Source: Coleofasciculus sp. FACHB-T130
GTDB lineage: Bacteria; Cyanobacteriota; Cyanobacteriia; Cyanobacteriales; FACHB-T130
Length of the DNA: 64,000 nt
Assembly: GCF_014695375.1 (NCBI RefSeq)
Contig: NZ_JACJOG010000014.1
Span: forward strand, 62,001 to 126,000
Direction: 5' to 3'
Positions 7,831 through 45,668 of this stretch are shown one piece after another. Numbering within the stretch: the stretch's first letter is position 1; every line of letters begins with the position of its first letter. The position numbers and the translations under genes are program-made. The notes beneath the pieces were generated by a model. That model was given only the letters and a program-made list of their open reading frames with translations, ran no database searches and was not told the origin of the DNA.

Positions 7831-7841
7831 GGAGTTGCGCG

Positions 7842-9017: not shown

Positions 9018-9053
9018 TCCTTAGCAACTGACACCTGACGCCTGACAAACAAA

Positions 9054-11330: not shown

Positions 11331-11334
11331 TTGC

Positions 11335-11411
11335 TAATGGGTAATAGGTAATAGGTAATGGGTAACGGGTAATGGTCATTATCAAGTACCCATCACCCAT
11401 TACCAATTCTC
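11335..11411. repeat. TAATGGG heptamer tandem repeat with inverted partner
   Basis: Five full 7-bp units (TAATGGG, TAATAGG, TAATAGG, TAATGGG, TAACGGG) run from 11335 to 11369, followed by a partial unit. ACCCATCACCCATTACC, their approximate reverse complement, follows at about 11387-11403, so the region can fold back. Short tandem heptamer repeats of this kind are characteristic of filamentous cyanobacteria. A similar arrangement occurs at 50710-50804. Confidence 0.7.
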
Positions 11412-11420
11412 AATGACCAA

Positions 11421-12719: not shown

Positions 12720-13157
12720 TGCTGCTCCGATGCAAATGAACCATTCCGAATCATTCCACAGTTTAGGGCAAAACCTCGGAGATTGGTTTGCTTAAGTGGT
12801 GGTGAACCGAAGGTCGTCCTCTTAGGACATCGTTTTCTTTTGGTTCAGATCACCTCTGAATCAATACCCAAGGACGGTATTTAGACCCGAACTCTAGTTG
12901 CTCTACCGCTTTGGCGTAGCACCAAGATGACCTTGAGGCTGCTAAGCTTTACCTCGGCAGAAGCTGCCACTCGCAAAACTTCTGCTTGTATTGCAGCAAA
13001 TTTCCTATATCATCTTTAACTTAATAGACTAGACTTGTTACAAAATCCAACAAATGCCAAAAAGCGGCAATGGGAACTCTAAGGTTTGACTCAGCTTCAT
13101 AGAAAAAAGTGGCTTCGTGTTTTGGTTGTGAGAGAGTAGCGGGATTTGTTGAAGTCG
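12720..13157. other. Divergent intergenic region between petP and the ABC exporter
   Basis: About 440 bp separate the divergent petP group (minus) and the polysaccharide exporter genes (plus), so promoters for both must lie here. No convincing paired -35/-10 boxes, RNA gene or repeat was identified. Short open frames crossing it have no ribosome-binding site or recognisable product. Confidence 0.4.
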
Positions 13158-14003: not shown

Positions 14004-14048
14004 GTTGTGATTGAGTTTGTGAGTTGTGGTGTTGGCAGCAGTGGTGTA

Positions 14049-31116: not shown

Positions 31117-31662
31117 ATGAACATTCTGCCTACTGAAATTGCCGATGTTTTAATCATCGAGCCTAAAGTCTTTTCAGATGATCGCGGGTTCTTTTACGAA
31201 AGCTACAACCAGAAAGCCTTTAGTGAAAAAGCTGGAATTTCGGCTAACTTCGCTCAAGACAACCATTCCCGTTCAGCGCAATATGTTTTGCGCGGACTGC
31301 ATTACCAAATCCAACAGCCTCAAGGTAAGTTGGTACGGGCGATCGCAGGCACTATCTTTGACGTAGCTGTAGACATCCGAAAAAGCTCCCCTACGTTTGG
31401 TCAGTGGGTGGGCTGCCTCCTCAGTGCTGAGAACAAACGCCAACTCTGGATACCTTCCGGCTTTGCCCACGGCTTTCTAGTCGTCTCAGAAGCCGCTGAA
31501 GTGTTGTACAAAACAACTGACTACTATGCGCCGCAGCATGAACGCTGCCTCCTGTGGAATGACCCAGATTTAGCGATTGACTGGCCCCTCACCGACTCGC
31601 CAGTGTTATCTGCCAAAGACCAAGCCGGTCAACCCCTCAACATTGCTGAAGTATTTCCATAA
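31117..31662 (+). CDS. rfbC: dTDP-4-dehydrorhamnose 3,5-epimerase RfbC
   Basis: The third enzyme of dTDP-L-rhamnose synthesis; it epimerises C3 and C5 of dTDP-4-keto-6-deoxyglucose. The 181-residue cupin carries DDRGFFYESYNQKAF near residue 21, QDNHSRSAQYVLRGLHYQ near 46-63 (catalytic His and substrate-binding residues) and IPSGFAHGFLVVSE near 110. Length is normal. GC content and a HIP1 site set it apart from its AT-rich upstream neighbours. It starts 2 bp after the TIM-barrel gene. After its stop, about 50 bp match the start of rfbD in decayed form, showing that rfbD originally followed directly. Confidence 0.94.
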   Translation: MNILPTEIADVLIIEPKVFSDDRGFFYESYNQKAFSEKAGISANFAQDNHSRSAQYVLRGLHYQIQQPQGKLVRAIAGTIFDVAVDIRKSSPTFGQWVGCLLSAENKRQLWIPSGFAHGFLVVSEAAEVLYKTTDYYAPQHERCLLWNDPDLAIDWPLTDSPVLSAKDQAGQPLNIAEVFP

Positions 31663-31713
31663 GGTGCATACTAATCGGTAGTACCGAACGCTTGGGTAAA
31701 CAACTCTAACAAA
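31659..31713 (+). pseudogene. Decayed 5' end of rfbD after rfbC
   Basis: The sequence after the rfbC stop aligns with the first 55-60 bases of intact rfbD at 42879. Both share the CCAT junction, GCAT, CTAATCGG, a TGTAC-like core, TTGGGTAAA and a final AACAAA, with a 3-base gap and several substitutions. The frame is closed by stops. Similarity ends near 31713, and the end of the opposing minus-strand gene follows. Confidence 0.75.
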
Positions 31714-31761
31714 AGTTATTGATCTATGGAGTTCAATCGCAGCCAAGCTTCCTGTTCATAA

Positions 31762-34008
31762 TTATTGGGGTAGAGTACCAAACCGACTTGTACATTTAAC
31801 AAACCAAATAATTAGTAAGACACAGCCCAAAATTGCATATATTAGTTGTGGTAGCCAGCTCCACAGTACATAGGGCAAAAAAGCCAAATCAACTTCATTA
31901 ATACCAGGAGGTATAATGACACCTTGATAAAACCCATTAACCATAACTGTTTTTAGTGGAATATCTTTTGAATTTGCTCTCCACTGAGGATGATATTGCT
32001 GGCTCAAAAATAAGAGTGTTTCTTGTTCAAGAGGTGTTACTTCAATTTTTTTGAAATCATCAAATAGGATATGTTCTTGTATTTTCAGTGGGAATTTTTC
32101 CTCGACAGATGACTTTAAACTTACTTGGTTACCATTGTCGATACTATAATTTGGAGTTTGCGATAGAAGAATTGGCTGCTGTGATTTTTTATAAACTTTA
32201 ATCTCATTAAGTTCAGCGATTTTTATAAAATTTTGACTTGTTAGAGGAGTTTTGGACATAAGTAGGCTAACTCCTGATAGGCTGAAATCACTATTGCTTA
32301 TCTTTGATTCTGAATCTAATTTATTAAAGTTTCTTCCATAAGTATTAGTACCAGACTGGCTCCAGTTTAAAACTATTTTCTGATAGTCCTTAGACGATAA
32401 AGAATTATAGGAGTGAATGCTTTTTATCTGAAATAAAGCTTCCTGATTAGATGGAACTATACCCACTATTTCATTACCAACAAGAGCAAAGCGAGAACCA
32501 TCGGATGTTTCTTTTTTTATTAAGCTTATTAAAGGCGATGATGTTTGTATATTATCAAGCGGCCTAACAAGCATTAAAGATTGTCCATAAATAAAGATAG
32601 AAATGACAACTAAGCATTGCAGCAAAAATGCTTTATTTACTGCAATGAATAAAGCTAAAGTCATAATAATAATCCAACTCGCTGCAATAAATTTTAGATT
32701 TAAATAATCATAGTGTTTATACCAGAAGACTAATTGTAGAGCGCTTAAAGCAGTTAAGGGAACCAACGACCAAGCAATTAAATACCTCGGTTTTACTAAT
32801 TTATTTCTTACAAGGTTATCGATGGCATAGCCGCAAAGAATGAATCCTGGTATTATAGCTCCACCTAATAACTGAGAACGGGATAGATTAAACCCAAGAT
32901 GATGAACGGCAAATAGGTACGCTGGAGGCCAAATGGTGCCAATCAGGCAAAGAATCGAAAATAGCTGCCAAGGCCATAAATTACACCATTGTTTATTTAA
33001 AAACGAAAATAAAAATAAAGTGAAATAAAATGGATTTAAGCTTAAGCCATTAAAAGTAACTGGATAATTTGGGTCGATAGGATTACCAAGCCAAAAAGGA
33101 TCGAAAATTGATGTAAAAAAAATTCCTAAATCTCTGAAATTATTGATTTTTGGTAATACAGCCAGAAAGAAATCATCAGATACACCGTTTAATCTAGCAG
33201 AACGTTGAGAATTAATAAGTAGGTCAGCATAAGTGGGTGAAGCCATTAATACCCCAGATACAACAAGCCCTAATATCATCAAAGCAGTATAAAATTTATT
33301 TTTTACATTTATGGTATATTTACATAGTCTAACTATTGTATAAGAAACAAGGATGTAAGCAGATAATACTATAAATTGAGGATAGCCTGTCATCAAAATG
33401 CTATACGTTGCAAATGAAATACCTATAGCGCTTAAAAAAGAGGGCTTTTTGATAAACTCCGTGTTCAGCCAGAGCAGGCAAACAGACCAGCAAATAGTCG
33501 AAATAAACATGATGAAGGTTAACCAGTAGGAAACAAATATACCTAAAGATAAACCTATTGCCGCAATAGAACATGCGAGGGGATGAAGGTCTAATGCCTT
33601 GAGAAACAAAAATAAAAATATACCCGTAAGGCAAACTGTAATTACAGTTAAAGCAGTATAGAGAATAAAAGGATTTTTGGTAAATATAGACAGCATATTA
33701 GTTATCAAATATGCTCGGCTGAAGCCACTAAGCTGAAAAGTAGGGCGGCCTAACTCCACATAAGGGTTCCAGGTTGATAACCAGCTATGATGGTTTCCGT
33801 TCAGATGTTGATTAATTTCTGGAATGTATACGGAACTCTGATCGGAAAATTTACGATTGGATATGTAGGTATTCTCAACTATTAAGTTACTACCTACTAC
33901 TTCATAATTGTTATTGTGAGGAAATATGACTTCTCCCTTTAAAAAAACCGGCGTAAAGTAGAGAAGCTGAACAAAAATCAAAAGAATAAAAGATTGCTTA
34001 TATTTCAT
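31762..34008 (-). CDS. Large multi-pass membrane protein (YfhO-like)
   Basis: A 748-residue protein with a signal-like first membrane segment and a long extracytoplasmic loop containing WLSTWNPYVELGRPTFQLSG near residue 80. About twelve further membrane segments follow, then a C-terminal extracytoplasmic domain of about 230 residues and a final membrane helix. That plan resembles the bacterial YfhO family, members of which are implicated in glycosylating envelope polymers. It is the last gene of the minus-strand block and converges on rfbC. It starts 10 bp after the upstream membrane-protein stop. The catalytic role is inferred from family plan only. Confidence 0.68.
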   Translation of the reverse strand: MKYKQSFILLIFVQLLYFTPVFLKGEVIFPHNNNYEVVGSNLIVENTYISNRKFSDQSSVYIPEINQHLNGNHHSWLSTWNPYVELGRPTFQLSGFSRAYLITNMLSIFTKNPFILYTALTVITVCLTGIFLFLFLKALDLHPLACSIAAIGLSLGIFVSYWLTFIMFISTICWSVCLLWLNTEFIKKPSFLSAIGISFATYSILMTGYPQFIVLSAYILVSYTIVRLCKYTINVKNKFYTALMILGLVVSGVLMASPTYADLLINSQRSARLNGVSDDFFLAVLPKINNFRDLGIFFTSIFDPFWLGNPIDPNYPVTFNGLSLNPFYFTLFLFSFLNKQWCNLWPWQLFSILCLIGTIWPPAYLFAVHHLGFNLSRSQLLGGAIIPGFILCGYAIDNLVRNKLVKPRYLIAWSLVPLTALSALQLVFWYKHYDYLNLKFIAASWIIIMTLALFIAVNKAFLLQCLVVISIFIYGQSLMLVRPLDNIQTSSPLISLIKKETSDGSRFALVGNEIVGIVPSNQEALFQIKSIHSYNSLSSKDYQKIVLNWSQSGTNTYGRNFNKLDSESKISNSDFSLSGVSLLMSKTPLTSQNFIKIAELNEIKVYKKSQQPILLSQTPNYSIDNGNQVSLKSSVEEKFPLKIQEHILFDDFKKIEVTPLEQETLLFLSQQYHPQWRANSKDIPLKTVMVNGFYQGVIIPPGINEVDLAFLPYVLWSWLPQLIYAILGCVLLIIWFVKCTSRFGTLPQ

Positions 34009-34018
34009 AACCTAGCAG

Positions 34019-35590
34019 CTATTCTTTTCTCTGTAGGAGTTCATAGTTATCTGGAAGAGATTTAGTGCCAATGACCTCAAAGTCCTCTTGGAAGTGATTC
34101 CATAAAAGAGGATGAGTATTTTTGAAGCGTAGTTCATCTCGACCGTCTAAAGCAATATCACCTAAAATTATCCAGTTAACATTTTTCTTGCGAAGCTCCT
34201 CTATCATTGTTTTTTGCCTATCTTCCACTTCAGGAAAAAGTAAGTAAATATCCCAAATCGGGGACTTTCTTTGCACAATTGGATAAAAAGTTGGCCAGTG
34301 AGGCGCGATGAGCAATCCTTCGTTAGGCTGTATTAATTGATTATTAATTTTTATAACCGTATCGATTAAGTTAGCAGTTGCTACATCCATCCAAAGCGTA
34401 TCGCCAGTAACGCTTCTTTGAACATACTGCTCTGGCGGAGCAGTTACCCTAAGGTAGTACGGGCTGACCAGACCTACACTAAGCAGTGTTGCAGCGAAAG
34501 TAATAGACAGCAGACCTGTATTAGCTTTTTTCTTAAAATTCCCTCGAAACATTGATGGAAGACACATTAATCCAATCAATAATGGATGAATAGCTTGAGC
34601 TAAATGTCCTAAGTCTGCGCGAGAAAAGGCATAGTGCATATACAGAAAGCTAACAAACGTAGATGCAATCAGTGGATGCTTTAGCCGAAGAGCATCACGC
34701 TTTGAAAGAAATAATTGGATAAGTATTAAAGTATTAAATAAAGGCAATATTAAGAAAAATATTCCTATAGAAAATGCATTGGCAGCCTGAATAAGATTCA
34801 TTTCAGAATAATTGGGATACCAGACCCAGGGAACTGGTAGCGGTAAATTTGTTCCGCCTAAACGAAATAAAAATTTGATGCTGTCTACAAAGCTTTCAAA
34901 GAAACCAGGAACTACGAAAAGCATAAAAAACATGGGGGAGTAGCCCATAAGTATTCCACAACCCCAGGCTACAAAGCGTCTGAAAATATCATTTCTACCG
35001 AGCTTTGCCCAAGTGAAGAATATCAAAAGCAAAAAAGATAAGAATGCATACAGACCGTGATTACGCCCTAGAAAAGCTGCCAAGCCAACAAAAACTCCAG
35101 CGATAAAATGTCGAAGTAATGAAGGTCTTTCGAGGAGTAAAATACCAAAATACACGGCAGCCATTGCGATACTTGGCTCAAAAAGCTTGTGGCGCGGGAA
35201 CATCCAGAGCAGTAGTAATAATCCTTCGATAGCCAGTAACCACCAAGATTGAGTTACTCGTTTGAGGGATAACAGTCCAAAAGCCAAACCTATAGTCTGG
35301 AAAATGGCTGTGGATATCCTCAAGGAAAGGATGCTATCATTGCCAAAAATTTTGAACCAAGCTGCACCCCAGTAATATCGACCTGGATCGTAAGACTGGA
35401 AGTCTCGAATAGGTACTTCGCCTAGAGCTGTATGTATGGTTCCATACCATAGGAAACCTTCGTCACCTAAGTTTATGCCGATATTGCTCTGAAGTATGAA
35501 TGAGGTAGTAACTAGCGCGGCAGCGAGCAGGAAGACTTTGAGGAAAGCAGGGAGTCGCTGAAAGTAAAGCCAACTAACATTAGTTTTCAT
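34019..35590 (-). CDS. GT-C-like membrane glycosyltransferase candidate
   Basis: A 523-residue protein with about eleven membrane segments and a soluble C-terminus of about 120 residues. The first extracytoplasmic loop contains INLGDEGFLWYGTIHTALGE near residue 35 and DFQSYDPGRYYWGAAWF near 62. The early Asp-Glu pair and DPGRYYW match the GT39/PMT-like pattern in which an acidic residue acts as catalytic base. This suggests transfer of a sugar from a polyprenyl-phosphate donor outside the cytoplasm. Its start overlaps the aminotransferase gene by 11 bp, so the two are translationally coupled. Donor and acceptor unknown. Confidence 0.65.
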   Translation of the reverse strand: MKTNVSWLYFQRLPAFLKVFLLAAALVTTSFILQSNIGINLGDEGFLWYGTIHTALGEVPIRDFQSYDPGRYYWGAAWFKIFGNDSILSLRISTAIFQTIGLAFGLLSLKRVTQSWWLLAIEGLLLLLWMFPRHKLFEPSIAMAAVYFGILLLERPSLLRHFIAGVFVGLAAFLGRNHGLYAFLSFLLLIFFTWAKLGRNDIFRRFVAWGCGILMGYSPMFFMLFVVPGFFESFVDSIKFLFRLGGTNLPLPVPWVWYPNYSEMNLIQAANAFSIGIFFLILPLFNTLILIQLFLSKRDALRLKHPLIASTFVSFLYMHYAFSRADLGHLAQAIHPLLIGLMCLPSMFRGNFKKKANTGLLSITFAATLLSVGLVSPYYLRVTAPPEQYVQRSVTGDTLWMDVATANLIDTVIKINNQLIQPNEGLLIAPHWPTFYPIVQRKSPIWDIYLLFPEVEDRQKTMIEELRKKNVNWIILGDIALDGRDELRFKNTHPLLWNHFQEDFEVIGTKSLPDNYELLQRKE

Positions 35591-36716
35591 GGAAAAACTG
35601 CTTCACTGCCTTGGTAATTACTTGAATCTGCTGGTCGCTTAACTCATAAAATATCGGTAAACGGAGCAGCCGATTAGAAATATCGTCAGTCACATTCATA
35701 TTGCCACAAACGCGACCATACCTTCTTCCGGCTGGGGAAGAGTGTAGGGGTACGTAATGAAATACAGCATTGATGCCACAAACCTTCAATTTTTCTATTA
35801 ATGCAGTGCGGCTCTCTAAATCTGGTAGAAGCAAATAGTACATATGGGCATTGTGCTGGCATTCTGCCGGAATAATGGGACGGCGCACCGTACCTCGCTC
35901 TTCCAAGTCAGCAAACGCCTCGTCATATTGCTGCCAAATGTCCAGCCTTTTGCGGGTGATAGTATTGGCTGATTCTAGCTGCGCCCATAGAAATGCAGCA
36001 TTGATTTCACTTGGCAAGTAAGATGAGCCAATATCCACCCAAGTATATTTGTCCACTAACCCCTGGAAGAATTGGCTGCGGTTGGTTCCCTTTTGCCAAA
36101 TTATCTCAGCGCGATCGCATAATTCTGGGTCATTAACCAGCAATGCGCCCCCTTCACCACAAATTACATTCTTAGTTTCGTGAAAGCTAACAGCGGCTAA
36201 ATGACCAATACTGCCTAGAGAGCGCCCTTTGTAAGCCGCGCCTATTCCTTGAGCTGCATCTTCTATTACTAGCAACTGGTGATGCTGGGCAATTTCCATA
36301 ATTTTGTCCATTTCACAGCCAACACCAGCATAATGAACTGGAGCGATCGCTTTAGTTTTGGGAGTAATCGCTGCCTCTATTTTGGATTCATTAATATTTA
36401 GAGTATCTGGGCGAATATCGACAAACACTGGTACGCCACCCCGCAGCACAAAGGCATTCGCAGTCGAGACAAAGGTGTATGACGGCATAACCACCTCATC
36501 TCCTGGCTGGATCTCGGCAAGGATGGCTGCCATCTCTAGTGCTGCCGTACAGGAGTGGGTTAACAATGCTTTGTAGCAGCCAATTTCTGACTCTAACCAA
36601 GCATGACATTTTTTAGTAAATTCGCCATTTCCGGAAAGATGGGCGTTAGCGATCGCTTGCTGAAGGTACTCCTGCTCTCTACCAGTAGTAAATGGCTTAT
36701 TGAAGGGAATGTTCAC
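35580..36716 (-). CDS. rffA: dTDP-4-amino-4,6-dideoxygalactose transaminase RffA/WecE
   Basis: A PLP-dependent aminotransferase that converts dTDP-4-keto-6-deoxyglucose plus glutamate to dTDP-4-amino-4,6-dideoxygalactose. The 378-residue DegT/DnrJ/EryC1-type protein begins IPFNKPFTTGREQEYLQQAI. It carries ALLTHSCTAALEMAAIL near residue 50, VIEDAAQGIGAAYKGRSLG near 155 (PLP-phosphate and Asp contacts) and SFHETKNVICGEGGALLVN near 183, where the Lys of HETKN forms the Schiff base. Gene order places it between a methyltransferase and a membrane glycosyltransferase. Its substrate is the same 4-keto intermediate used by RfbC/RfbD, so the two pathways compete or share precursor. Confidence 0.88.
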   Translation of the reverse strand: MNIPFNKPFTTGREQEYLQQAIANAHLSGNGEFTKKCHAWLESEIGCYKALLTHSCTAALEMAAILAEIQPGDEVVMPSYTFVSTANAFVLRGGVPVFVDIRPDTLNINESKIEAAITPKTKAIAPVHYAGVGCEMDKIMEIAQHHQLLVIEDAAQGIGAAYKGRSLGSIGHLAAVSFHETKNVICGEGGALLVNDPELCDRAEIIWQKGTNRSQFFQGLVDKYTWVDIGSSYLPSEINAAFLWAQLESANTITRKRLDIWQQYDEAFADLEERGTVRRPIIPAECQHNAHMYYLLLPDLESRTALIEKLKVCGINAVFHYVPLHSSPAGRRYGRVCGNMNVTDDISNRLLRLPIFYELSDQQIQVITKAVKQFFHEN

Positions 36717-36723
36717 AAGACTC

Positions 36724-37593
36724 TCAACTGCGACTTGCTATCAAAAGCAAGGAGCCACCAGCAGGAAATGAGAAGCCAAGACGGATCATGGTCTTTTCCA
36801 AGTATAGAATGCTCTCTAAGATAGCATTCATCCAGCCACTAATCCTCAGCTCAGATGTAGCATCATAGTTTGGATTAGGTTTTCGCTGCTGCAAACGAGA
36901 GAGCGCCATTAAAGGTAGTAGCAGCGAAACAAAGGATGTCATTCTTACTACTGTGAATCCGGCACATTCCACTTTAGTTTTTAACTCTTGGGCGTGATAC
37001 CGACGTACATGGTGAGCATAGTCATCAGCTTGGCTCCAGAGCCAACGATGCTGTGGAACAGTCAGCACAATACCGCCCCCTGGCTTAGTTGCTTGATACA
37101 TTTGGGCTAAAACTTTTCCGTCTTCTTTGATATGTTCCAAAACATCAAAAGCACCAATGACATCAAATTCATTTGCAAAGGGGATTTTACAAGCATCCAT
37201 CTGAAATAACTCTGCCTTAGATAGCCGCTGAGCAGCAAAATCCAAGCCTATGGTAAAGATTTCACTCCCCCACAAACGAAGTTTAGGAAATGCTTGCTCA
37301 ATGCCCCACAAGACAAATCCAGTTCCACAGCCGATTTCCAAAAAGCTTTTAGCTTGGGGAAAATAGCGTTGCAAGGCCCAAATTATCAAACGGTTGCGGG
37401 AACGAAACCAAAAGTTCTCCGCTTCTAGGGTAGCAAGCTTAGTAAAAAACCTAGCCTCAAAGCCATCACTTGCTTCTGCCAGTTGAGGTGCGAATGCCAC
37501 ATAGCCATCTACCAGCTTTGGTGCATGACCACAAGAGGTACAAGTCCATCCCAATATCTCAAAGTGTTTGCCGCACATACCACACACCTTCAT
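36724..37593 (-). CDS. Methyltransferase with N-terminal zinc-ribbon-like motif
   Basis: A 289-residue protein. The N-terminus has two Cys pairs (CGMCGKHF and CTSCGHAP) spaced like a small zinc ribbon, followed by a class I SAM methyltransferase with motif I FLEIGCGTGFVLWGIEQAF near residue 85. DVIGAFDVLEHIKEDGKV near 145 and GGIVLTVPQHRWLWSQAD near 172 are typical of glycan-cluster methyltransferases. The C-terminal part has a hydrophobic stretch near residues 215-232 that may touch the membrane. It overlaps the upstream transporter gene by 4 bp and precedes rffA by 7 bp. The substrate is probably a nucleotide or lipid-linked sugar; not proven. Confidence 0.78.
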   Translation of the reverse strand: MKVCGMCGKHFEILGWTCTSCGHAPKLVDGYVAFAPQLAEASDGFEARFFTKLATLEAENFWFRSRNRLIIWALQRYFPQAKSFLEIGCGTGFVLWGIEQAFPKLRLWGSEIFTIGLDFAAQRLSKAELFQMDACKIPFANEFDVIGAFDVLEHIKEDGKVLAQMYQATKPGGGIVLTVPQHRWLWSQADDYAHHVRRYHAQELKTKVECAGFTVVRMTSFVSLLLPLMALSRLQQRKPNPNYDATSELRISGWMNAILESILYLEKTMIRLGFSFPAGGSLLLIASRS

Positions 37594-37952
37594 CCCTGAC
37601 TTCCTATTACTATACCTGCAACGATTAAACCCATCCCTACAACTTTAGGCATTGTGATTGCATCGTGAAAGAAGATGGAACTGAGACTAAGTACTAAAAC
37701 AAATGTGATGCTCGTGAAGGGATAGGCATAGCTGAGCGTAAACTTAGTCATAGCAGCCATCCATGAAACTGCTGCTAAAAAAGCACAGGCAAAGCTACTA
37801 ATTATCCAAGGATTAGCTAGCAAGCGTAAAATAAACCACAGTTTTTCTGATGCTTCCACTGGAAATGAACCCGCAGCATTAACTTGCCACTTAATAATAA
37901 TTTGACCATAAACTGTAAGCAGAATTGTCAGAAGAATATATAGGTGAGTCAT
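37590..37952 (-). CDS. Small EamA/SMR-type four-helix transporter
   Basis: A 120-residue protein consisting of four membrane segments with short loops, the size and plan of the small multidrug resistance/EamA half-transporters. The pattern (YGQIIIKWQVNAAG after helix one, SYAYPFTSITFVLVLSLSS in helix three, GMGLIVAGIVIGS in helix four) resembles ArnE/ArnF-like flippases that move undecaprenyl-linked aminosugars. Next to an RffA aminotransferase a flippase role is attractive but unproven. It probably acts as a dimer. It overlaps the downstream methyltransferase by 4 bp and follows a small unknown gene by 5 bp. Confidence 0.72.
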   Translation of the reverse strand: MTHLYILLTILLTVYGQIIIKWQVNAAGSFPVEASEKLWFILRLLANPWIISSFACAFLAAVSWMAAMTKFTLSYAYPFTSITFVLVLSLSSIFFHDAITMPKVVGMGLIVAGIVIGSQG

Positions 37953-37957
37953 TATAC

Positions 37958-38251
37958 TTAACCAACTTTTTTTAAATGTGCTATTGTTTCTTTCTCTCTC
38001 TCCTGCAAACCCGAATACCCTGGTGCCAAATCGAAGGCATACTTACAATTTATGTAAAGCGTTAAATTTTGATTAAAGGTCAGACTTAAACTTGCAGTAT
38101 TTACCGCTGATGTCCAAGCCGTGAATAGAGGCTTTTTTACCATTTCTCTGACGAATACATTAGCTCTGTAAAAACGGAGTTTAGCCAAGCCAGTAATGAA
38201 AGCATCCAATTCTGCAACTTTGTGAATTAGTTTCACCGTGGTATCTGACAA
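37958..38251 (-). CDS. Unknown 97-residue protein, possibly a truncated remnant
   Basis: I do not recognise this protein. It is basic and amphipathic (LRFYRANVFVREMVKKPLF), with no membrane segment or known motif. The likely start is a TTG with an AAGGGAG-type ribosome-binding site just upstream. The same frame is open for another 26 codons 5' of that start and reads like coding sequence, up to a stop near 38332. It may therefore be a fragment of a longer protein that lost its N-terminus. It sits 5 bp before the small transporter gene. A real small gene and a decay product are both possible. Confidence 0.4.
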   Translation of the reverse strand: MSDTTVKLIHKVAELDAFITGLAKLRFYRANVFVREMVKKPLFTAWTSAVNTASLSLTFNQNLTLYINCKYAFDLAPGYSGLQEREKETIAHLKKVG

Positions 38252-38671
38252 TTTAGATAGTTCTCCCTTTTCAAATTTAGATGTCCTTGGAGAGCGCTGC
38301 CAACTCGCAGAATTGACAAGTACAGGTAATCATTTCTCAAATAGTCTAGTCTGTTTCCTTTGATGTCCATGAATGGAACAACACAAAGTATTTACTCTGT
38401 AAAATTTGTCTCAAATAATACAATGTGTGCTGACCCCATTTGTCAATCAGCTTTGTTGAAAACATTTACAGAGCCTTGGGCGAAAGTTTGGATGAAATAA
38501 ATCCAATTCCAAAGAAAATTCCGCAGAGGTTAATATTTTTTTTCGAATGTAACAGGGCTTACATCGTTGAGAACGAAAGCTTTAAATTCAAAAAAAATTT
38601 ATATGATAATTAATCAAATAAAATGACAACTAGCTTATACCTTTCAATTCTGCCATGAACTTTACTCAATT
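38252..38671 (-). other. 420-bp AT-rich gap within the minus-strand block
   Basis: The only long gap inside the otherwise compact minus-strand block. The part next to 38251 remains open in the frame of the 97-residue protein. The rest holds homopolymer A/T runs and no recognisable gene or RNA. It separates an upstream group (WbqC to beta-propeller protein) from a downstream group (small protein to YfhO-like) and may contain a second promoter or a deletion scar. Confidence 0.4.
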
Positions 38672-39571
38672 TTAGACTAAAATAGCCAATCCAAATCCAG
38701 ACTTACCATATCCGTTACCATTGTATAACATATATTTTTCATCTTTATAATTAAAAACGAAGGGATACTCAACACTTTCAGAATCCCAGCCTGAAGTAGA
38801 CACATTAAGGCAAAATTTTTCATCAAACCTTTCCCAGTGAATACCATCTAATGATTCTGCATAGCCAATCCGATAAGCAGTGCCCCGGTATGAATACCAC
38901 ATCTTATATATACCATTCTCTTTAATTACACAAGGTTTGGCTATGGCATATTCATCAGGAGATTTAAAGTTAAGCGCAATCGTCCCTTCTCTTATCCAAT
39001 TAATACCATCTAATGACTCGGCATATTTGATTAAGTATGCCATGTCAGTCGGTTGGGAACCCCATTTTAGATTAGATCCATACCACATTTTCCAGACTTG
39101 ACCATCCCGCATTACCCAAGGGTAGGATATAGAAAGCGGGTCAACTTCATTTCTATCGACAATTGGTGCTTTAGAAAATCGTTTAAACTCAGACTCTAGT
39201 GAATTGCTAATAGCTAAACCGATACTATTACGCCACGGAACCGTTACGCCCAGATTCCATCCAAGATAGTAGAGATATCTTTTTTCATCAAGGATAGTCA
39301 AGCATCCCATAGAAACACCGCTGTCATCAAAGGTGCCTATTTCCCCTGGCTGAACTACAGGTTGATTGGATATTTGTATGACTTGCTGGGGATTGTTAAG
39401 ATTAATAATTATAAATCCAATACTCGATCTGTTTTTCCTATCCCTACAGCTGAAATATATTTTAAAAGTATCTTTTTCAAGATATTCTGCTACTGGGTTA
39501 GCTGCATGAGATATCATCCATTCATAATTATTATTGGGACAAAAAATTAGCCCTAGCTTTTTCCATTTCAT
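38672..39571 (-). CDS. Five-bladed beta-propeller glycosidase-like protein (GH43/GH32-like)
   Basis: A 299-residue protein built from repeated WxxW-type beta blades. The repeat YAESLDGINW / YAESLDGIHW occurs twice, near residues 180 and 235, each preceded by VWKMWYG or IYKMWYS strands. That is the signature of five-bladed propellers related to glycosyl hydrolases and phosphorylases of the GH43/GH130 type. There is no signal peptide, so it is probably cytoplasmic. Members in O-antigen-type clusters are thought to act on sugar precursors or in transfer rather than degradation. It starts 10 bp after the NeuD-like gene. The catalytic residues could not be assigned with confidence. Confidence 0.68.
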   Translation of the reverse strand: MKWKKLGLIFCPNNNYEWMISHAANPVAEYLEKDTFKIYFSCRDRKNRSSIGFIIINLNNPQQVIQISNQPVVQPGEIGTFDDSGVSMGCLTILDEKRYLYYLGWNLGVTVPWRNSIGLAISNSLESEFKRFSKAPIVDRNEVDPLSISYPWVMRDGQVWKMWYGSNLKWGSQPTDMAYLIKYAESLDGINWIREGTIALNFKSPDEYAIAKPCVIKENGIYKMWYSYRGTAYRIGYAESLDGIHWERFDEKFCLNVSTSGWDSESVEYPFVFNYKDEKYMLYNGNGYGKSGFGLAILV

Positions 39572-39581
39572 TTCAAACTAC

Positions 39582-40244
39582 CTATAAATTTCTTAATCGA
39601 TTGCTCGGAACTTTGGATAACTCTGCTGCATCAGATGCGTAAACTCCATTTTCTTGAGTATCCTGAAGAATTAATGCTCCAGCGCCAATGACACATCCTT
39701 TTGCTACAGTGACATGATCTCTAATAGTGGCATTAACGCCTATAAAGCAGCTTTCACAAATTTTAACTCCACCTGAAATCACAACATGAGAAGTAATAAA
39801 ACAGTTATCCTTTATCTCAGAATGATGTCCTATATGATTTCCACTCCAAACTGTGACGTTATTACCAATTTTTACAAAGGGTTGGATAGTAACGTCTTCT
39901 AAAATAAAACAATTATCACCAATTTGGGTGTCACCCCAATGTGTAGTTTTAGAACTAATGTAACTAATTAACTTATACCCTTTTTGCTTAGCTAAATTAT
40001 ATTTATTTGTCCTAACCGTATTAAGCTTTGCGTAACTAACAGCAATAAACATTTCATGGACTTCAGGCGAGTAATTTTGTTCAACTTCATCAAATGGAAC
40101 AAGCGGTAGACCACAAAATTCACTTAACTTAAGGTATTCTCTATCTACCGTGAAAGCTACCACTTCATGATTGCTGTCATGGGTCAAATAAAAATGTGCC
40201 AGCTGTGCGATGTCTCCAGTACCAAAAATAACTATTTTACTCAT
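39582..40244 (-). CDS. NeuD-family sugar O/N-acyltransferase
   Basis: A 220-residue protein of the PglD/NeuD group. The N-terminal Rossmann-like domain, KIVIFGTGDIAQLAHFYL, binds the sugar nucleotide. From about residue 100 a left-handed beta-helix of hexapeptide repeats begins (WGDTQIGDNCFILEDVTIQP), with the likely catalytic His in WSGNHIGHHSEIKDN near residue 138 and GCVIGAGALI near 190. It would acetylate or formylate an amino or hydroxyl group on a nucleotide sugar, so a 4-amino sugar from RffA is a plausible substrate (inference). It is followed 10 bp later by the propeller protein. Confidence 0.82.
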   Translation of the reverse strand: MSKIVIFGTGDIAQLAHFYLTHDSNHEVVAFTVDREYLKLSEFCGLPLVPFDEVEQNYSPEVHEMFIAVSYAKLNTVRTNKYNLAKQKGYKLISYISSKTTHWGDTQIGDNCFILEDVTIQPFVKIGNNVTVWSGNHIGHHSEIKDNCFITSHVVISGGVKICESCFIGVNATIRDHVTVAKGCVIGAGALILQDTQENGVYASDAAELSKVPSNRLRNL

Positions 40245-40278
40245 TGTGCTTTTAATTGTTATTTTACTTTTATTAAAA

Positions 40279-40917
40279 TTAAATTTTATTTTTTCTAACT
40301 ATTAGAGTAAATTCATATAGTCCATAATCATGCAGTAAAGCTACATTTCTAGAAAATCTTTTTTTGCATAAATCAAAATAGAAGCATGGATCGGCGTAAT
40401 ATAAATGATCTTGCATATACTCTCTGTCGGAATAACTAGTTAAAATGTTAAATGCAAAACCAGATTGGCTGATAATATTGATACTATTCAAAGTTTCAAT
40501 AATATATTCTTCCCACTCCTGATTGCTTCTATCCAGTTTTACATTAAAAATCCCGCTAGCAATCGTGTAATCGGAAACCAAAGAAAAATTATTATCCGAG
40601 GAAAAATAGCAATTAGGTTTATCGTGATACAATTCTCTTGCTTTGGCAATCATTGCTTCTGACAAGTCAAAGCCCCTATAGTTAAATTTGTAGCTTTTTT
40701 CAGCCATAAATGCAAATAAAGAACCGTATCCACATCCATAGTCATTGATAGAAAAATGAGCTGGTTGATTGCATAGCTTTAGCAGTTGCTCAAACCTTAT
40801 TTGTTGAGACTCTAGAGAATTCCAATCTACACCTTGAGGTACAGAACCGTATATAGCTAGTTTTTCGGTGTAATAATATTTAACATCCTCTTTAATAGAA
40901 TTAAATTTACTGTTCAT
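40279..40917 (-). CDS. SAM-dependent methyltransferase
   Basis: A 212-residue class I methyltransferase. Motif I reads SINDYGCGYGSLFAFMAE near residue 57, with Asp-Tyr-Gly-Cys-Gly in place of the more common DxGCGxG. The acidic ribose contact is in YRGFDLSEAMIAKARE near 82. SDYTIASGIFNVKLDR near 115 and a Tyr-rich C-terminus follow. It overlaps the 3' end of the upstream GT2 gene by 11 bp. The gene is AT-rich and uses AT-ending codons, like its neighbours. It is probably a sugar O- or N-methyltransferase; the substrate is unknown. Confidence 0.75.
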   Translation of the reverse strand: MNSKFNSIKEDVKYYYTEKLAIYGSVPQGVDWNSLESQQIRFEQLLKLCNQPAHFSINDYGCGYGSLFAFMAEKSYKFNYRGFDLSEAMIAKARELYHDKPNCYFSSDNNFSLVSDYTIASGIFNVKLDRSNQEWEEYIIETLNSINIISQSGFAFNILTSYSDREYMQDHLYYADPCFYFDLCKKRFSRNVALLHDYGLYEFTLIVRKNKI

Positions 40918-41842
40918 GTTTTTCTAACCTCTGATACAATTGCCGAACTATTGTATAAGGTCTATTTTTAGTCTCAATAAATATTTTTGAAATATACATT
41001 CCAATTACACCCAAAAAGCATATTATGAGACCTCCTATAAACCATATAGAAACAATCAGAGATGTCCAACCTACAAGGGTAGTATTAAATAAAAGTTTAC
41101 GCCTTACCAAGTCTAGAATAAAAATAGCAGATATCAATGCCATAAATAAACCTATATAAAAAATATAGATTAAAGGTTTATTGCTAAAAGATGTTACCGC
41201 ATTTACTAAAATATTCATTTTTTTGCTAAAGCTATATGTAGTTTCTGATTTTGAATGTTTAACTACATACATAGGAACTTGTTCATATCCAGTAATGTGC
41301 CAAACTCCTGCTAAGAATACTTCTCTTTCCCTAAATCTTAATAAACTTTTAACATACTTTCTACTCATTAACCTTGCGGTAACAATATTTTGAGGTAAAT
41401 CAACGTCGGCTAAATAGCTAAGGAGCCGATAAAAAAAAGCACCAGATAGCTGCTCAAAAATTCCCCCTTTTCTAATTTTTTGAACTCCATAAACCACATC
41501 ACAGTTTCTATCTAATAATTGCTGATAGAACAGACTAAATAATTCAGGTTCCTCCTCTAGATCGCAATCAATTAGAAATATTTTTTCGCCTTTAGCATAA
41601 GACAAACCAGTCATCATTGCCTTGTGATGTCCAAAGTTACGAGACAAATCTACTACTCTGATTTTGGAATTCTCTTCGTAGATCGAAACAGCTACTTCTA
41701 AAGAATCATCAGGCGACCCGTCATTAACAAAGATAATCTCGTAATTATCAGTTACTTTCTCTACCTCCACCTTTATCCGCCTATAAAACTCCTTCAGGTA
41801 AGGAGAAGAGTAATACATAGTTGTAACTATGGAAATGTCCAT
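40907..41842 (-). CDS. GtrB-like GT2 glycosyltransferase with two membrane segments
   Basis: A 311-residue enzyme. The GT-A core starts ISIVTTMYYSSPYLKEFYR, with EIIFVNDGSPDDSLE near residue 34, DLSRNFGHHKAMMTGLSYA near 67 and the acidic motif FLIDCDLEEEPELF near 90. Two membrane helices near residues 225-248 and 262-287 end the protein, as in GtrB/ArnC/DPM-type polyprenyl-phosphate glycosyltransferases. Unlike the GtrB-like protein at 27677, the D-x-D motif is intact. It lies 1 bp downstream of wbqC and overlaps the next gene by 11 bp. It probably loads a sugar onto undecaprenyl phosphate for the membrane glycosyltransferases of this block. Confidence 0.85.
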   Translation of the reverse strand: MDISIVTTMYYSSPYLKEFYRRIKVEVEKVTDNYEIIFVNDGSPDDSLEVAVSIYEENSKIRVVDLSRNFGHHKAMMTGLSYAKGEKIFLIDCDLEEEPELFSLFYQQLLDRNCDVVYGVQKIRKGGIFEQLSGAFFYRLLSYLADVDLPQNIVTARLMSRKYVKSLLRFREREVFLAGVWHITGYEQVPMYVVKHSKSETTYSFSKKMNILVNAVTSFSNKPLIYIFYIGLFMALISAIFILDLVRRKLLFNTTLVGWTSLIVSIWFIGGLIICFLGVIGMYISKIFIETKNRPYTIVRQLYQRLEKHEQ

Positions 41843-41843
41843 G

Positions 41844-42536
41844 TCAAAAACTTTTCATGAATTTTTTTGCGTTTTCACCCTCATTTAATATTAAATCTAT
41901 AATACTTACATAGTGATCGAAGGGAGGGAACAGTTGTTTATATTCAGGGTATCCTGTGTAATCATAAAATATTACTTCTACTCCCGCAGAATCGAAAATT
42001 TCTATATTGAGATAATCATGCGCTGCTGGACCAGAGATGTATTGCGAAGCACCAGCTTGTTGACATAGACTGAGCAATCTCTCTGATTTACCTTCTAATA
42101 ATTGATAATTTGAAGACCATGTAATTTTAGTTTCTATTTCTAATAAATTACAAATTTTTATAATAAAAAAATGATTGATATCACTCAATTTTGACATTTG
42201 TGCCTTTAAATACATATTTTTAAACCTGTCAATGTATTTATCAAAACATTTAGCTTTGCTGTAGTTATGAAAAAGGGACTTTAAATGTTTTTGATTCCAA
42301 CTTGATTCTGAGATATTTGTTTCGTTGATTTTTTGAAAGTATTTTCCTTTAACCTCAACAGGAATAGTCAACCATTCTGTGCCTTTAGGAGTTTTAATTT
42401 TATTTCGATTTCTCCAATCTCTTCGAGTATATTGCATATCATCATACAAAATAAATTCATCTACACTATTGATTAAGTCAAAGTAACCTTTCCAAGGAAT
42501 ATAGTTTGACTGAACAATAGCTACCTTTTTGCCCAT
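41844..42536 (-). CDS. WbqC-like protein
   Basis: A 230-residue protein of the WbqC family. The conserved N-terminus KKVAIVQSNYIPWKGYFDLI is followed by EFILYDDMQYTRRDWRNRNK near residue 28, EWLTIPVEVKGKY near 54 and SQYISGPAAHDYLN near 165. All of these are characteristic of WbqC proteins in O-antigen loci. Their activity is poorly defined; a role in amino-sugar or amino-acid modification has been suggested, and they often accompany RffA-type aminotransferases, as here. It is the first gene of the minus-strand block, so the block's main promoter should lie in the gap upstream (42537-42720). Confidence 0.85.
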   Translation of the reverse strand: MGKKVAIVQSNYIPWKGYFDLINSVDEFILYDDMQYTRRDWRNRNKIKTPKGTEWLTIPVEVKGKYFQKINETNISESSWNQKHLKSLFHNYSKAKCFDKYIDRFKNMYLKAQMSKLSDINHFFIIKICNLLEIETKITWSSNYQLLEGKSERLLSLCQQAGASQYISGPAAHDYLNIEIFDSAGVEVIFYDYTGYPEYKQLFPPFDHYVSIIDLILNEGENAKKFMKSF

Positions 42537-42710
42537 GTTACTTTTTTGCTAGAGGAACACTATAAACTTCTGCCATCTCAGCCTGAATCGGGAGTTTATT
42601 TAGAATTTTTCAACTACACTCTATTTCCACTAGTCACTTGCAGTGCCAGCACTGCATCAGATTATGGGCACTATAAGTGCTGTCTAACACTAAATAACAT
42701 ACTAAAGATA

Positions 42711-42882
42711 ATAGAATCCGAGTTATTATACAAAACTGCTGAACACTATGCATCACAGCATAAGCGGTGTAACCTTGGAATGACCCGGCTATAGGCATGG
42801 CTGGCTTTTGAGCGCACCGCAAGTGTGATTTGCCAAAAATCAATCTGGTCAACCCCTCAAAACCGCTGAAGTATTTCCATGA
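42711..42882 (+). pseudogene. Decayed 3' end of rfbC in front of rfbD
   Basis: Reading toward rfbD, the translation ELLYKTAEHYASQHKRC parallels EVLYKTTDYYAPQHERC of the intact RfbC. It then breaks at a stop (42792-42794). The end of the gene resumes as GQPLNIAEVFP-like sequence (GGTCAACCCCTCAA, then GCTGAAGTATTTCCATGA). The old stop TGA overlaps the rfbD ATG as ATGA, preserving the ancestral coupling. Only about 170 bp of rfbC survive. The preceding 150 bp are not recognisable. Confidence 0.85.
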
Positions 42883-43781
42883 CTCGCATCCTCCTAATCG
42901 GCTGTACAGGGCAGGTTGGTAAAGAATTGCAACAAACCCTCGCCCCCTACCAGGAGATAGTTGCTGTTGGACGCCCTACTGTAGACCTCTCCCAGCCAGA
43001 TATCCTTCGTCAAATAATTGGGGAAGTCCAGCCCCAGATTATCATCAATGCAGCTGCTTATACGGCTGTAGACAAAGCTGAGAGTGAACCGGAACTGGCA
43101 AAAGGTGTCAATGCGATCGCGCCCAGCATTCTTGCCCAGGAAGCCCAAAAACAGGGATCTTTCCTGATTCACATCTCTACCGATTATGTTTTCGATGGTA
43201 GCCAGAGTCACCCCTACGGGGAAACTGACGCCACTAACCCCGTTAGCGTCTACGGTGAATCTAAACTCGCTGGGGAAGAAGCCATTCGGGAAACCTGCAC
43301 CCAACACCTGATTTTCAGAACTGCATGGGTATATGGCACTCACGGCAAAAGTAATTTTGTCAAAACCATGCTGCGATTGGGTGGAGAGCAAGAGGAAGTC
43401 CGCGTCGTTGCCGATCAAATTGGTAGCCCGACTTGGGCAAAAGATTTAGCACAAGCGATCGCCCAACTCATTCCCCATCTGACACCAGAAATCGCCGGAA
43501 CCTACCACTACACCAATAGCGGTGTCGCCAGCTGGTATGACTTTGCTGTTGCCATCTTTGAAGAAGCCAAACACGTGGGGTTCCCCTTAAAAGTCCAGCG
43601 CATCATCCCCATTACTACTGCTGAATATCCCACTCCCGCACATCGTCCCGCCTATTCTGTCCTTTCGTGTGGGAAAATATCTGCGGTTATGGGAACTTAT
43701 CCCCCCCACTGGCGACAGGGATTGCGGCAGATGTTACTGGAGTACATAGGCGATGAAAGCTTTAATTCTCTCCGGCGGTAA
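42879..43781 (+). CDS. rfbD: dTDP-4-dehydrorhamnose reductase RfbD
   Basis: The last enzyme of dTDP-L-rhamnose synthesis; it reduces dTDP-4-keto-rhamnose with NAD(P)H. The 300-residue SDR protein has the nucleotide loop ILLIGCTGQVGKELQQTL at the N-terminus, INAAAYTAVDKAESEPELA near residue 55, and the catalytic Tyr/Lys in PVSVYGESKLAGEEAI near 128. FVKTMLRLGGEQEEVRVVAD near 164 is also typical. Its ATG overlaps the stop of the rfbC relic and its end overlaps rfbA by 29 bp. GC content and HIP1 sites resemble the conserved genome, not the AT-rich block upstream. Confidence 0.94.
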   Translation: MTRILLIGCTGQVGKELQQTLAPYQEIVAVGRPTVDLSQPDILRQIIGEVQPQIIINAAAYTAVDKAESEPELAKGVNAIAPSILAQEAQKQGSFLIHISTDYVFDGSQSHPYGETDATNPVSVYGESKLAGEEAIRETCTQHLIFRTAWVYGTHGKSNFVKTMLRLGGEQEEVRVVADQIGSPTWAKDLAQAIAQLIPHLTPEIAGTYHYTNSGVASWYDFAVAIFEEAKHVGFPLKVQRIIPITTAEYPTPAHRPAYSVLSCGKISAVMGTYPPHWRQGLRQMLLEYIGDESFNSLRR

Positions 43782-44826
43782 AGGCACGAGGCTGCGTCCT
43801 CTCACCTATACGGGGGCAAAACAACTCGTGCCCGTCGCGAACAAACCCATCCTCTGGTACGGCATCGAACGCATCGTTGCCGCAGGCATTACCGACATTG
43901 GTATTATTATCAGTCCCGAAACCGGCGCAGAAGTTCAAGCCAAAACTGGCGATGGCGATCGCTTCGGTGCCAGAATTACGTACATTCTCCAGGAACAGCC
44001 AGCAGGACTTGCCCACGCCGTCCAAATTGCCCAACCTTTCTTGGAAGATGCACCCTTCATCATGTACCTGGGCGATAACCTGATCCAGAACAATTTAGAT
44101 CCATTTCTGGACACCTTCAAAGCCCAAAACTTGGACGCGATGATTCTCTTGCGTCCAGTGGCTAATCCCAGCGCCTTTGGTGTCGCCAAAGTGGATGAGA
44201 AGGGACGAGTATTGTATCTGGTGGAAAAACCCCAAGTTCCTCCCTCCAATCTTGCCTTGGTAGGGATTTACTTTTTCAACTACAGCATCCATCACGCCAT
44301 TGCTTGTATCCACCCATCTAAGCGAGGCGAACTGGAAATTACAGATGCCATTCAATGCTTGATTGACCAGCAAAAAAACGTAGAAGCCTGTCAATTAGAT
44401 GGCTGGTGGCTGGATACTGGAAAAAAAGACGATCTTTTGTCAGCCAATCAAATTATTCTAGATAGTTATCTCGTTGGTTCAGTTCAAGGTCAGCTGGATG
44501 ACCAAACTCAAATCATTGGACGAGTGGAAATTGGTGAAGGGTCAAAAGTTGTTAACAGTACCATTCGGGGTCCTGCGATTATCGGTCGAGATTGCCACAT
44601 CGAAAACTGCTTTATTGGCCCCTATAGTAGCATTGGTGATTGCAGCATCCTAATCGACGCCGATCTTGAGCATAGTGTTATCTTACAGGGCGCTCAAGTG
44701 GTGGGAATTCATCAGCGAATTGTAGATAGTCTAATTGGGCAACGCGCCCAGCTAACCGCGGCCCACCGCCGACCCAAGGCCCTGCGTTTTATGATTGGTG
44801 ATGATTGCCACGTTGAACTAACGTGA
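43753..44826 (+). CDS. rfbA: Glucose-1-phosphate thymidylyltransferase, long form
   Basis: Makes dTDP-glucose from glucose-1-phosphate and dTTP, the entry step for rhamnose and other deoxysugars. The nucleotidyltransferase signature LILSGGKGTRLRPLTYTGAK is at residues 3-22, and NKPILWYGIERIVAAGI follows. MYLGDNLIQNNLD near 97 binds metal, and EITDAIQCLIDQ is near 197. At 357 residues it is the long type, with a C-terminal left-handed beta-helix (from about residue 245), as in StrD-like enzymes, rather than the compact 290-residue RmlA. It overlaps rfbD by 29 bp and ends in a 4-bp overlap with the next glycosyltransferase gene. No rfbB (4,6-dehydratase) is present in the window. Confidence 0.92.
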   Translation: MKALILSGGKGTRLRPLTYTGAKQLVPVANKPILWYGIERIVAAGITDIGIIISPETGAEVQAKTGDGDRFGARITYILQEQPAGLAHAVQIAQPFLEDAPFIMYLGDNLIQNNLDPFLDTFKAQNLDAMILLRPVANPSAFGVAKVDEKGRVLYLVEKPQVPPSNLALVGIYFFNYSIHHAIACIHPSKRGELEITDAIQCLIDQQKNVEACQLDGWWLDTGKKDDLLSANQIILDSYLVGSVQGQLDDQTQIIGRVEIGEGSKVVNSTIRGPAIIGRDCHIENCFIGPYSSIGDCSILIDADLEHSVILQGAQVVGIHQRIVDSLIGQRAQLTAAHRRPKALRFMIGDDCHVELT

Positions 44827-45668
44827 TCTATTTCGTTACAGTTAACTATTATTCAACAGATTTGGTTACTCAACTCATTAGATCGTTTCCGGAGGATAGC
44901 GAGGTTCCCTATCAGGTTGTTATTGTCAATAACTCTTTAGATGATGCTTCAATTGAGCAAGTCAAAACGGATAGTATTCTGATTCTTCAAGCAAAAACTA
45001 ATCTAGGATTTGGCAAAGGCTGTAACTTAGGTTTAAATTGGATTTATGAGCAAGATAATGAAGCAATCGTCTGGATTATCAACCCGGACAGCTATCTTCT
45101 AGAAAAGACTCTAGAACAAGTGCCAGCCTTTTTTAAGACTTATCCAGAACTTTCTATTGTTGGCACTTTTATCTATACACCGGCAGGAGAAGTTTGGTTT
45201 GGTGGAGGACGCTTTATTCCTGAAACTGGAACAATTCTCTCTGAAAACCTGTTGTTGACGCATCCAAAATTAGCTTATATGCCCTGCGATTGGGTTTCGG
45301 GATGTAGTCTGCTGGTCAATTTCCGAAAGTTTCCCAGTTGTCCTGAGTTTGACCCGGCTTACTTTCTTTATTATGAAGATTTTGATTTTTGTAGACGCTA
45401 TTCCCTACAGGGGCATTTAATCGGTATTACCTCTCTGATTCGCGTCGGACATCAACCATCTTCGATTACAAACAGAAACATTTTTAATAAAATCAAGCAC
45501 AGTACCTATAGCTACTTGTTAACCTTGGAAAAATATGCAAGTTTAACAGTGCGATCGCTACGGTTTCTCCGTCTTATTTTCCATGCGTTTATGTTACTTG
45601 TAGTAAAACCGTCGGTCGCCCTTGGTAAACTTTACGGCGTCTTCCTCTATTTAAAAAAGCGATACTAA
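44823..45668 (+). CDS. GT2 rhamnosyltransferase-like protein
   Basis: A 281-residue GT-A enzyme starting at a GTG that overlaps the rfbA stop (GTGA). IYFVTVNYYSTDLVTQLI opens the fold, YQVVIVNNSLDDASIEQV near residue 30 binds the nucleotide, and NLGFGKGCNLGLNWIYEQ near 60 is typical of dTDP-rhamnosyltransferases (WbbL-like). The acidic metal motif is WIINPDSYLLEKTLE near 84, and FLYYEDFDFCRRYSLQG near 178 contacts acceptor. Direct translational linkage to rfbA supports rhamnose as the donor, by inference. A hydrophobic C-terminus may associate with the membrane. Confidence 0.8.
   Translation: MIYFVTVNYYSTDLVTQLIRSFPEDSEVPYQVVIVNNSLDDASIEQVKTDSILILQAKTNLGFGKGCNLGLNWIYEQDNEAIVWIINPDSYLLEKTLEQVPAFFKTYPELSIVGTFIYTPAGEVWFGGGRFIPETGTILSENLLLTHPKLAYMPCDWVSGCSLLVNFRKFPSCPEFDPAYFLYYEDFDFCRRYSLQGHLIGITSLIRVGHQPSSITNRNIFNKIKHSTYSYLLTLEKYASLTVRSLRFLRLIFHAFMLLVVKPSVALGKLYGVFLYLKKRY

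Follow-up and report, generated by a model that had tools for sequence, protein, structure and literature searches.

O-antigen clusters of Salmonella enterica are the closest described systems. In PMC3715488, recombination within the rml genes and gene remnants mark cluster exchange, the rhamnose genes lie at the edge of a modular cluster, and remnants and composition segments mark the joins; the wzy and H-repeat remnants of Salmonella groups B and D are likewise dead fragments that mark an earlier cluster state or a join. For cyanobacteria, a 2025 paper (PMC12285223) describes rfb genes as often scattered and some strains as seemingly without the pathway, whereas rfbC and rfbD themselves were mostly neighbours in the order surveyed here. 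A 64,000-nt window of Coleofasciculus sp. FACHB-T130 (genome G000; 6.2 Mb, 60 contigs), corresponding to positions 62001-126000 of contig C14 (NZ_JACJOG010000014.1), was analysed. It contains an O-antigen-type locus at 13-47 kb with glycosyltransferases, methyltransferases, rhamnose genes and the ABC exporter genes wzm and wzt (13146-15338), in which the joint between the rhamnose genes rfbC and rfbD occurs twice, with an inverted gene block of ~11 kb between the copies.

The case belongs to a known general kind, the recombination scars of O-antigen loci, and stands out by the doubled joint that flanks an inverted block. Unlike S. enterica, G000 has a rhamnose set that is split mid-way with its joint doubled, and rml genes are missing from the other family genomes compared (5/5); the group B and D remnants, as described in PMC3715488, derive from a polymerase or an element and include no doubled operon joint around an 11-kb inverted block. 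A search of titles and abstracts in the open-access literature found no report of a doubled-joint scar in cyanobacteria, which is weak evidence of absence. All coordinates are positions in the window. G-numbers denote genomes compared and L-numbers loci compared; G001 is a sister species in the same genus, and G002-G005 belong to the same family. Families were assigned using Pfam profiles and NCBIfam/TIGR profiles, the latter with curated bit-score cut-offs.

The doubled rfbC/rfbD joint

The G000 genome was searched with positions 31117-31760, and two places were returned, the query itself and 42726-42936, the latter aligning with 31504-31713 at 71% identity over ~210 bp (E = 1.6e-21). This single alignment spans both copies of the rfbC/rfbD joint, the left one formed by intact rfbC and then decayed rfbD, the right one by decayed rfbC and then intact rfbD. 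The rfbC remnant, ~170 bp directly before intact rfbD, scored 498, compared with a maximum of 307 among 500 shuffles; its homology extends back to ~42708-42713, and it has no intact reading frame, each of the three frames containing stops. The rfbD remnant, ~65 bp directly after intact rfbC, is modest at the DNA level, its score being reached by 4/2000 shuffles with permissive gaps. Its translation, ILIGSTERLGKQL*QKLLIYG, aligns in register with the rfbD N terminus, and the protein score was reached by 0/3000 shuffles against the first 45 rfbD residues and by 1/3000 against whole rfbD; the remnant ends at 31713 by the DNA alignment and at ~31730 by the protein alignment.

A reading of the letters and open reading frames (ORFs) made earlier, referred to here as the sequence-only reading, had described a decayed rfbD start after rfbC (31117-31662), a decayed rfbC end before rfbD (42879) and a junction present twice around the block, and all of these descriptions stand, both remnants aligning with rfbC or rfbD above chance. 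It had also called the innermost members of each pair decayed; decayed they are, as truncated fragments and not as whole decayed genes. Chance alignment was rejected on the E value of the joint match and the shuffle tests of both remnants. A second rfbC elsewhere in G000 was rejected as the source of the rfbC remnant, the own-genome search yielding only a homologue at 42% identity. The fragments lie ~30 bp and ~170 bp from the outermost block genes. No repeats shared by the block ends were found above shuffles, on which ground a transposon with terminal repeats was rejected, and family searches gave no transposase or integrase match among the block proteins.

Gene order was counted in 59 genomes other than G000, of which 48 have both rfbC and rfbD of the type counted; the 11 without rfbC or rfbD of this type (G001-G005, G007, G015, G020, G033, G034 and G048) were left out. 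rfbD follows rfbC at a distance of at most 250 bp in 37/48, the gap is 613-1919 bp in 4/48, and the order is reversed or the genes lie apart in 7/48. The run rfbC-rfbD-rfbA-GT44823-GT4c is present in eight loci (L004, L005, L013, L026, L027, L122, L123 and L124); L012, with 1.8 kb between its rfbD and rfbA, was not placed in this list of unbroken operons. Because 37/48 relatives are contiguous and eight loci carry the full run, the contiguous rfbC-rfbD order is, as judged from gene order, ancestral and the split in G000 derived.

The relatives with adjacent rfbC and rfbD that the sequence-only reading had expected therefore exist. Its claim that the block entered at the rfbC/rfbD joint is also upheld, since the contiguous order is ancestral, the joint occurs twice, and the arrangement was found in no other of 40 rfb loci. 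An empty site, with a single joint and no block, was found in no genome of the same genus or family, G001-G005 being without rfbC/rfbD of this type; contiguous sites are known only from other families. Among the matches listed for G000 rfbD, the best named ones are from Nostoc, Phormidium and other cyanobacteria. Separately, a PGM gene, a gene for a 586-amino-acid (aa) protein and a family 2 glycosyltransferase (GT2) gene, at 3440-7746 in the window and ~40 kb upstream of GT4c in G000, directly follow GT4c in G024 and G050 (L004 and L013); the ancestral run may therefore have been longer and broken at a second place.

Content and distribution of the block

The block had been counted as 11 genes on the opposite strand. 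Ten of these are convincing, counting two membrane proteins without a family match, and the eleventh is a doubtful 97-aa ORF, also without a family match, in a gene-poor stretch of ~720 bp (37953-38671). The G+C content is ~33-40% at 32-35.5 kb, 45% at 35-37.5 kb and 32-36% at 38-42.5 kb, which gives at least three composition segments, and the gene-poor 720 bp coincides with the second G+C change; for these reasons the block is composite. The gene-poor stretch at this composition change is probably a decayed gene or an internal joint. Coordinates of the features are listed in Table 1.

Table 1. Features at and around the doubled rfbC/rfbD joint (window positions)
Feature	Coordinates	Strand	Evidence
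Intact rfbC/rmlC (dTDP-4-dehydrorhamnose 3,5-epimerase)	31117..31662	+	TIGR01221 282.5 bits, cut-off 155.75
Remnant of rfbD 5′ end, ~20 codons, one stop	31663..31730	+	alignments and shuffles
Block: 748-aa membrane protein without family match; putative membrane glycosyltransferase	31762..34008	-	homologue 65% in G101
Block: 523-aa membrane protein without family match; putative membrane glycosyltransferase	34019..35590	-	homologue 70% in G101
Block: wecE/rffA, dTDP-4-amino-4,6-dideoxygalactose transaminase	35580..36716	-	NF008687 630 bits, cut-off 375; solved homologues 4piw, 6blg
Block: methyltransferase	36724..37593	-	PF13489
Block: EamA-type small transporter, ArnE/ArnF-like	37590..37952	-	below curated cut-offs
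Gene-poor stretch with doubtful 97-aa ORF; base composition change; probable internal joint	37953..38671	.	
Block: GH130-like protein	38672..39571	-	PF04041
Block: NeuD/PglB/VioB-family sugar acetyltransferase	39582..40244	-	TIGR03570 175.3 bits, cut-off 160.8
Block: methyltransferase	40279..40917	-	PF13649
Block: GT2 glycosyltransferase, probably polyprenyl-phosphate type	40907..41842	-	PF00535
Block: WbqC-like protein	41844..42536	-	PF08889
Divergent intergenic stretch, block to rfbD operon	42537..42707	.	
Remnant of rfbC 3′ end, 72% to intact rfbC; last 36 bp best kept	42708..42878	+	
Intact rfbD/rmlD (dTDP-4-dehydrorhamnose reductase)	42879..43781	+	TIGR01214 379.5 bits, cut-off 224.05
rfbA-like nucleotidyltransferase	43753..44826	+	PF00483
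GT44823, GT2 of ancestral rfbCDA-GT-GT operon; last 40 residues survive in G001	44823..45668	+	
GT4c, GT4 of ancestral operon; resident	45671..46744	+	92% in G001

For WecE, NF008687 and TIGR02379 both scored above cut-off, and the dTDP-4-keto-6-deoxyglucose transaminase feature of the dTDP-amino-sugar pathway is present. Side-branch modules of the Gtr and Arn type consist of a polyprenyl-phosphate GT2, a small flippase and a GT-C membrane transferase. The block is partly like them in gene content, having a GT2, an EamA/ArnE-F-like protein and large membrane proteins, to which dTDP-sugar enzymes are added; it is unlike them in that its membrane proteins match no family and its EamA protein scored 39.8 against an ArnF cut-off of 99. 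When Pfam was searched at E up to 5, the 748-aa protein gave no match and the 523-aa protein one chance-level row, and a sequence search of the PDB with the 748-aa protein gave two chance-level rows only. Single-sequence structure models of the two membrane proteins were unusable (mean pLDDT 37.5 and 43.6).

wecE and the genes for the two membrane proteins recur as a run in G101 (79, 70 and 65% identity), where a single small ORF separates the run from the end of a GT44823-GT4c pair that it faces, and where rfbC is not adjacent but on another contig. With G000 included, the 748-aa protein was found in 2/120 genomes and the 523-aa protein in 2/388, so that both large membrane proteins were found in one other genome (G101), at a different site. 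The GH130-like protein was found in 7/388 genomes and close WecE relatives in 12/120. G003, of the same family, carries wecE (74%) and the EamA gene (67%) in a locus of its own, together with an rfbA-like gene, a GT2 gene and what we take to be a dehydratase-like gene. The 748-aa protein had no match in 72,556 plasmid records. At E up to 1e-60, 45 of the plasmid records carried WecE homologues (8 at 60-80% identity and 37 below 60%), with identity up to 64.8% among the 12 matches listed. A known plasmid unit was rejected as an identity for the block because the 748-aa protein is on none of the records searched, although WecE homologues are on 45.

Exchange in the sister species and parallels in other loci

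G001 core genes have ~92% DNA identity to those of G000, and 12.5 kb stand in G001 in place of window 14.7-45.5 kb; GT4c (92%) and the last 40 residues of GT44823 (85% identity) are retained. The four-fold site difference between G000 and G001 is 0.17 in 12 core genes (421/2451 sites, with wzm, wzt and GT44823 left out on purpose), 0.41 in wzm, 0.72 in wzt and 0.20 (4/20) in the GT44823 tail. Because of these differences, and because the GT44823 tail and GT4c are kept in G001, the exchanged stretch in G001 runs from before wzm to inside GT44823, well past the rfbC/rfbD joint, and the right-hand operon end is resident in the genus. rfbC or rfbD of the G000 type was found in 0/5 of the family members compared (G001-G005). 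Distant rfbC homologues at 41-42% identity occur in G001, G002 and G005, and G000 has such a homologue elsewhere too. The view of the rhamnose genes as conserved anchors does not survive this comparison, given that no other family member keeps the type and that the G001 exchange ends inside GT44823. Nor is the joint supported as a cassette-exchange point within the family. As to recurrence, one of 40 rfb loci (G214) has the same type of scar, at rfbD/rfbA, and one (G204) a 36-nt copy of the rfbD start.

The survey for scars was a self-search, at E up to 1e-3, of 40 rfb loci in pieces of 12-21 kb with 139 genes; hits in L010, L024, L027 and L030 were not counted, being judged paralogues or short repeats. 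The locus of G214, which belongs to another family of the same order (L127, 9845-12958), has rfbC, intact rfbD, a GT4-like gene, a decayed 3′ third of rfbD (78% over ~324 bp) and rfbA. It is like G000 in the succession of a whole gene, an insert, a dead tail of the same gene and the next operon gene; it is unlike G000 in lying one gene downstream (rfbD/rfbA), in having a one-gene insert on the same strand and in that only the upstream gene is doubled. In G204 (L132, 9584-9619), the first 36 nt of rfbD are repeated identically between rfbC and rfbD. G231, whose rfbC is the closest as a protein (85%) among the loci examined, has between rfbC and rfbD what is presumably a resolvase plus TnpB-like element (L128, 4590-6269); within it, a 142-aa ORF overlaps a 559-aa ORF, which points to two genes read in different frames. 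Other ORFs lie between rfbC and rfbD in G026 and G027. Self-search found no doubled joint at the inserts of G231, G026 and G027.

Age and origin of the two copies

The rfbC remnant and intact rfbC differ at 14/59, 15/59 and 21/56 first, second and third codon positions, respectively, compared with 6/59, 5/59 and 23/56 for intact rfbC and the G076 gene. Of 49 columns that do not vary among the intact genes compared, 9 are changed in the remnant, every one at a first or second position. Because of the excess of first- and second-position differences over the pattern between intact rfbC and G076, the remnant has lost constraint. Per branch, third positions gave a divergence of 0.26, and decay at first and second positions gave 0.25 (ratio 0.95, 95% 0.48-1.81); the decay is about as old as the divergence, within wide error. 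Third-position divergence of the joint copies is 3.2 times the G000-G001 value (95% 1.9-5.1); if rates are alike, the event would predate the G000/G001 split and G001 would later have lost the whole stretch.

The last 36 bp of the remnant are identical to intact rfbC at 31/36 positions, compared with 91/135 in the preceding part, and this identity exceeds that of any of 37 relatives compared (at most 28/36). Selection for the start context of rfbD may have kept these 36 bp, which would persist because they carry its ribosome-binding and start context. Retention of the remnants as a whole for a function, such as driving or leading the rfbD operon (promoter, leader) or serving recombination in block switching, is highly improbable. 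The 31/36 identity agrees with it, and rfbD, severed from its upstream operon, probably needs a promoter here; against this, a promoter scan of the region gave one promoter-like site, with 1.2 expected, the rest of the rfbC remnant decays at all codon positions, and 71% identity over 210 bp would make a poor substrate for homologous recombination. A terminator scan of the region found none.

An old insertion with joint duplication in an ABC-transporter-type O-antigen locus is our preferred explanation, in which we place about even confidence. rfbC and rfbD would have started as neighbours within rfbC-rfbD-rfbA-GT-GT, and the joint would have been duplicated as the block entered. A single crossover could have done this if a circular or tandem DNA with both the block and an rfbC-rfbD piece recombined with the chromosome; the outer genes would then have stayed whole, and the inner pieces would have been truncated from the outset. 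Once in place, the block WecE may make a 4-amino-4,6-dideoxy sugar from the dTDP-4-keto-6-deoxyglucose pool common to rhamnose, which the NeuD-like protein and the methyltransferases would acylate or methylate, the GT2 would load on a lipid carrier and the EamA protein would flip, and the membrane proteins might add it to exported glycan outside the inner membrane. A common origin of the two copies is favoured by the matching GC3 (G+C content at third codon positions) of intact rfbC (0.51) and intact rfbD (0.50) and by a K shared by the rfbD scrap and native rfbD where 7 other aligned proteins have Q. Also in favour of the preferred explanation are the duplicated joint itself, the contiguous order in relatives, the lack of another close rfbC in G000, a decay about as old as the divergence, the well-kept last 36 bp of the remnant and the similar scar in G214.

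Several observations weigh against an old insertion with joint duplication. A divergence 1.9-5.1 times that of the species split would require a dead fragment to have remained readable for a long time, and the composite block need not have entered in one go. No plasmid form of the block was found among the plasmid records searched with the 748-aa protein, and the block ends share no repeats. The remnant shares 14 sites with the intact copy where G076 differs and 13 with G076 where the intact copy differs, and order-wide DNA searches with the remnant were nearly tied (101 and 99.6 bits). The best tree, from an unconstrained maximum-likelihood (ML) search on 174 columns, leaves the copies apart, with their pairing not rejected (approximately unbiased (AU) test, p = 0.37). 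Where native rfbD carries C and V, the scrap instead carries S and L, residues that are common in relatives.

The position of the remnant, as near to G076 as to the intact copy, the separation of the copies in the ML tree and the S and L residues all favour the joining of two rfb operons, which is possible but rather unlikely. Here a foreign O-antigen cluster ending in rfbC and an rfbD piece, perhaps with the block behind it, would have recombined illegitimately inside resident rfbC and taken the place of what lay upstream in the resident rfbCDA-GT-GT operon, so that the remnant would be resident and intact rfbC foreign. Replacement from wzm to GT44823 does occur in the genus, as the four-fold differences of wzm and wzt relative to the core genes indicate, and the right side is resident, G001 keeping the GT44823 tail and GT4c. 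However, intact rfbC shares the GC3 of rfbD and has 49% G+C, whereas the genes upstream of rfbC have ~30-42%; the pairing of remnant and intact copy is not rejected by the AU test, and the ages of decay and divergence are equal within their wide error. Distinctly less probable is a tandem rfbC-rfbD duplication that came first, with the inner copies decaying and the pieces of the block inserted or piled up later in the dead stretch. The exact 36-nt copy of the rfbD start in G204 and the insertion-sequence-like element in G231 indicate that both types of step happen at the rfbC/rfbD joint, and the composition segments and internal gene-poor stretch of the block fit gradual assembly, but the fragments end so close to the outermost block genes (~30 and ~170 bp) that deletions at both ends near the insertion would be needed.

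More broadly, doubled-joint scars might be the footprint of recurrent module uptake by cyanobacterial polysaccharide loci through the integration, by a single crossover, of DNA that includes part of the host operon; we regard this as doubtful. On the same doubtful footing, the host gene would have been rebuilt with its old tail left behind, and G000 (rfbC/rfbD) and G214 (rfbD/rfbA) would be two independent cases. Under the preferred explanation, module uptake in a cyanobacterial surface-glycan locus would have left at the G000 joint a scar that is still readable and can be roughly dated. The comparison also shows that a commonly contiguous rhamnose pair can be split in one species and missing from sister lineages. 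If the G214 parallel is general, surveys of many genomes for such scars could show how surface-sugar modules are gained, which may bear on phage resistance and cell-surface variation.

Upstream in the window, a further difference from the sister species was seen when window 1-12500 was compared with contig G001:C23. A stretch of this contig matches window 95-10218 on the other strand, ~20 kb from the UbiA/ArsA/wzm side, which places a rearrangement boundary between G000 and G001 near 10.3 kb.
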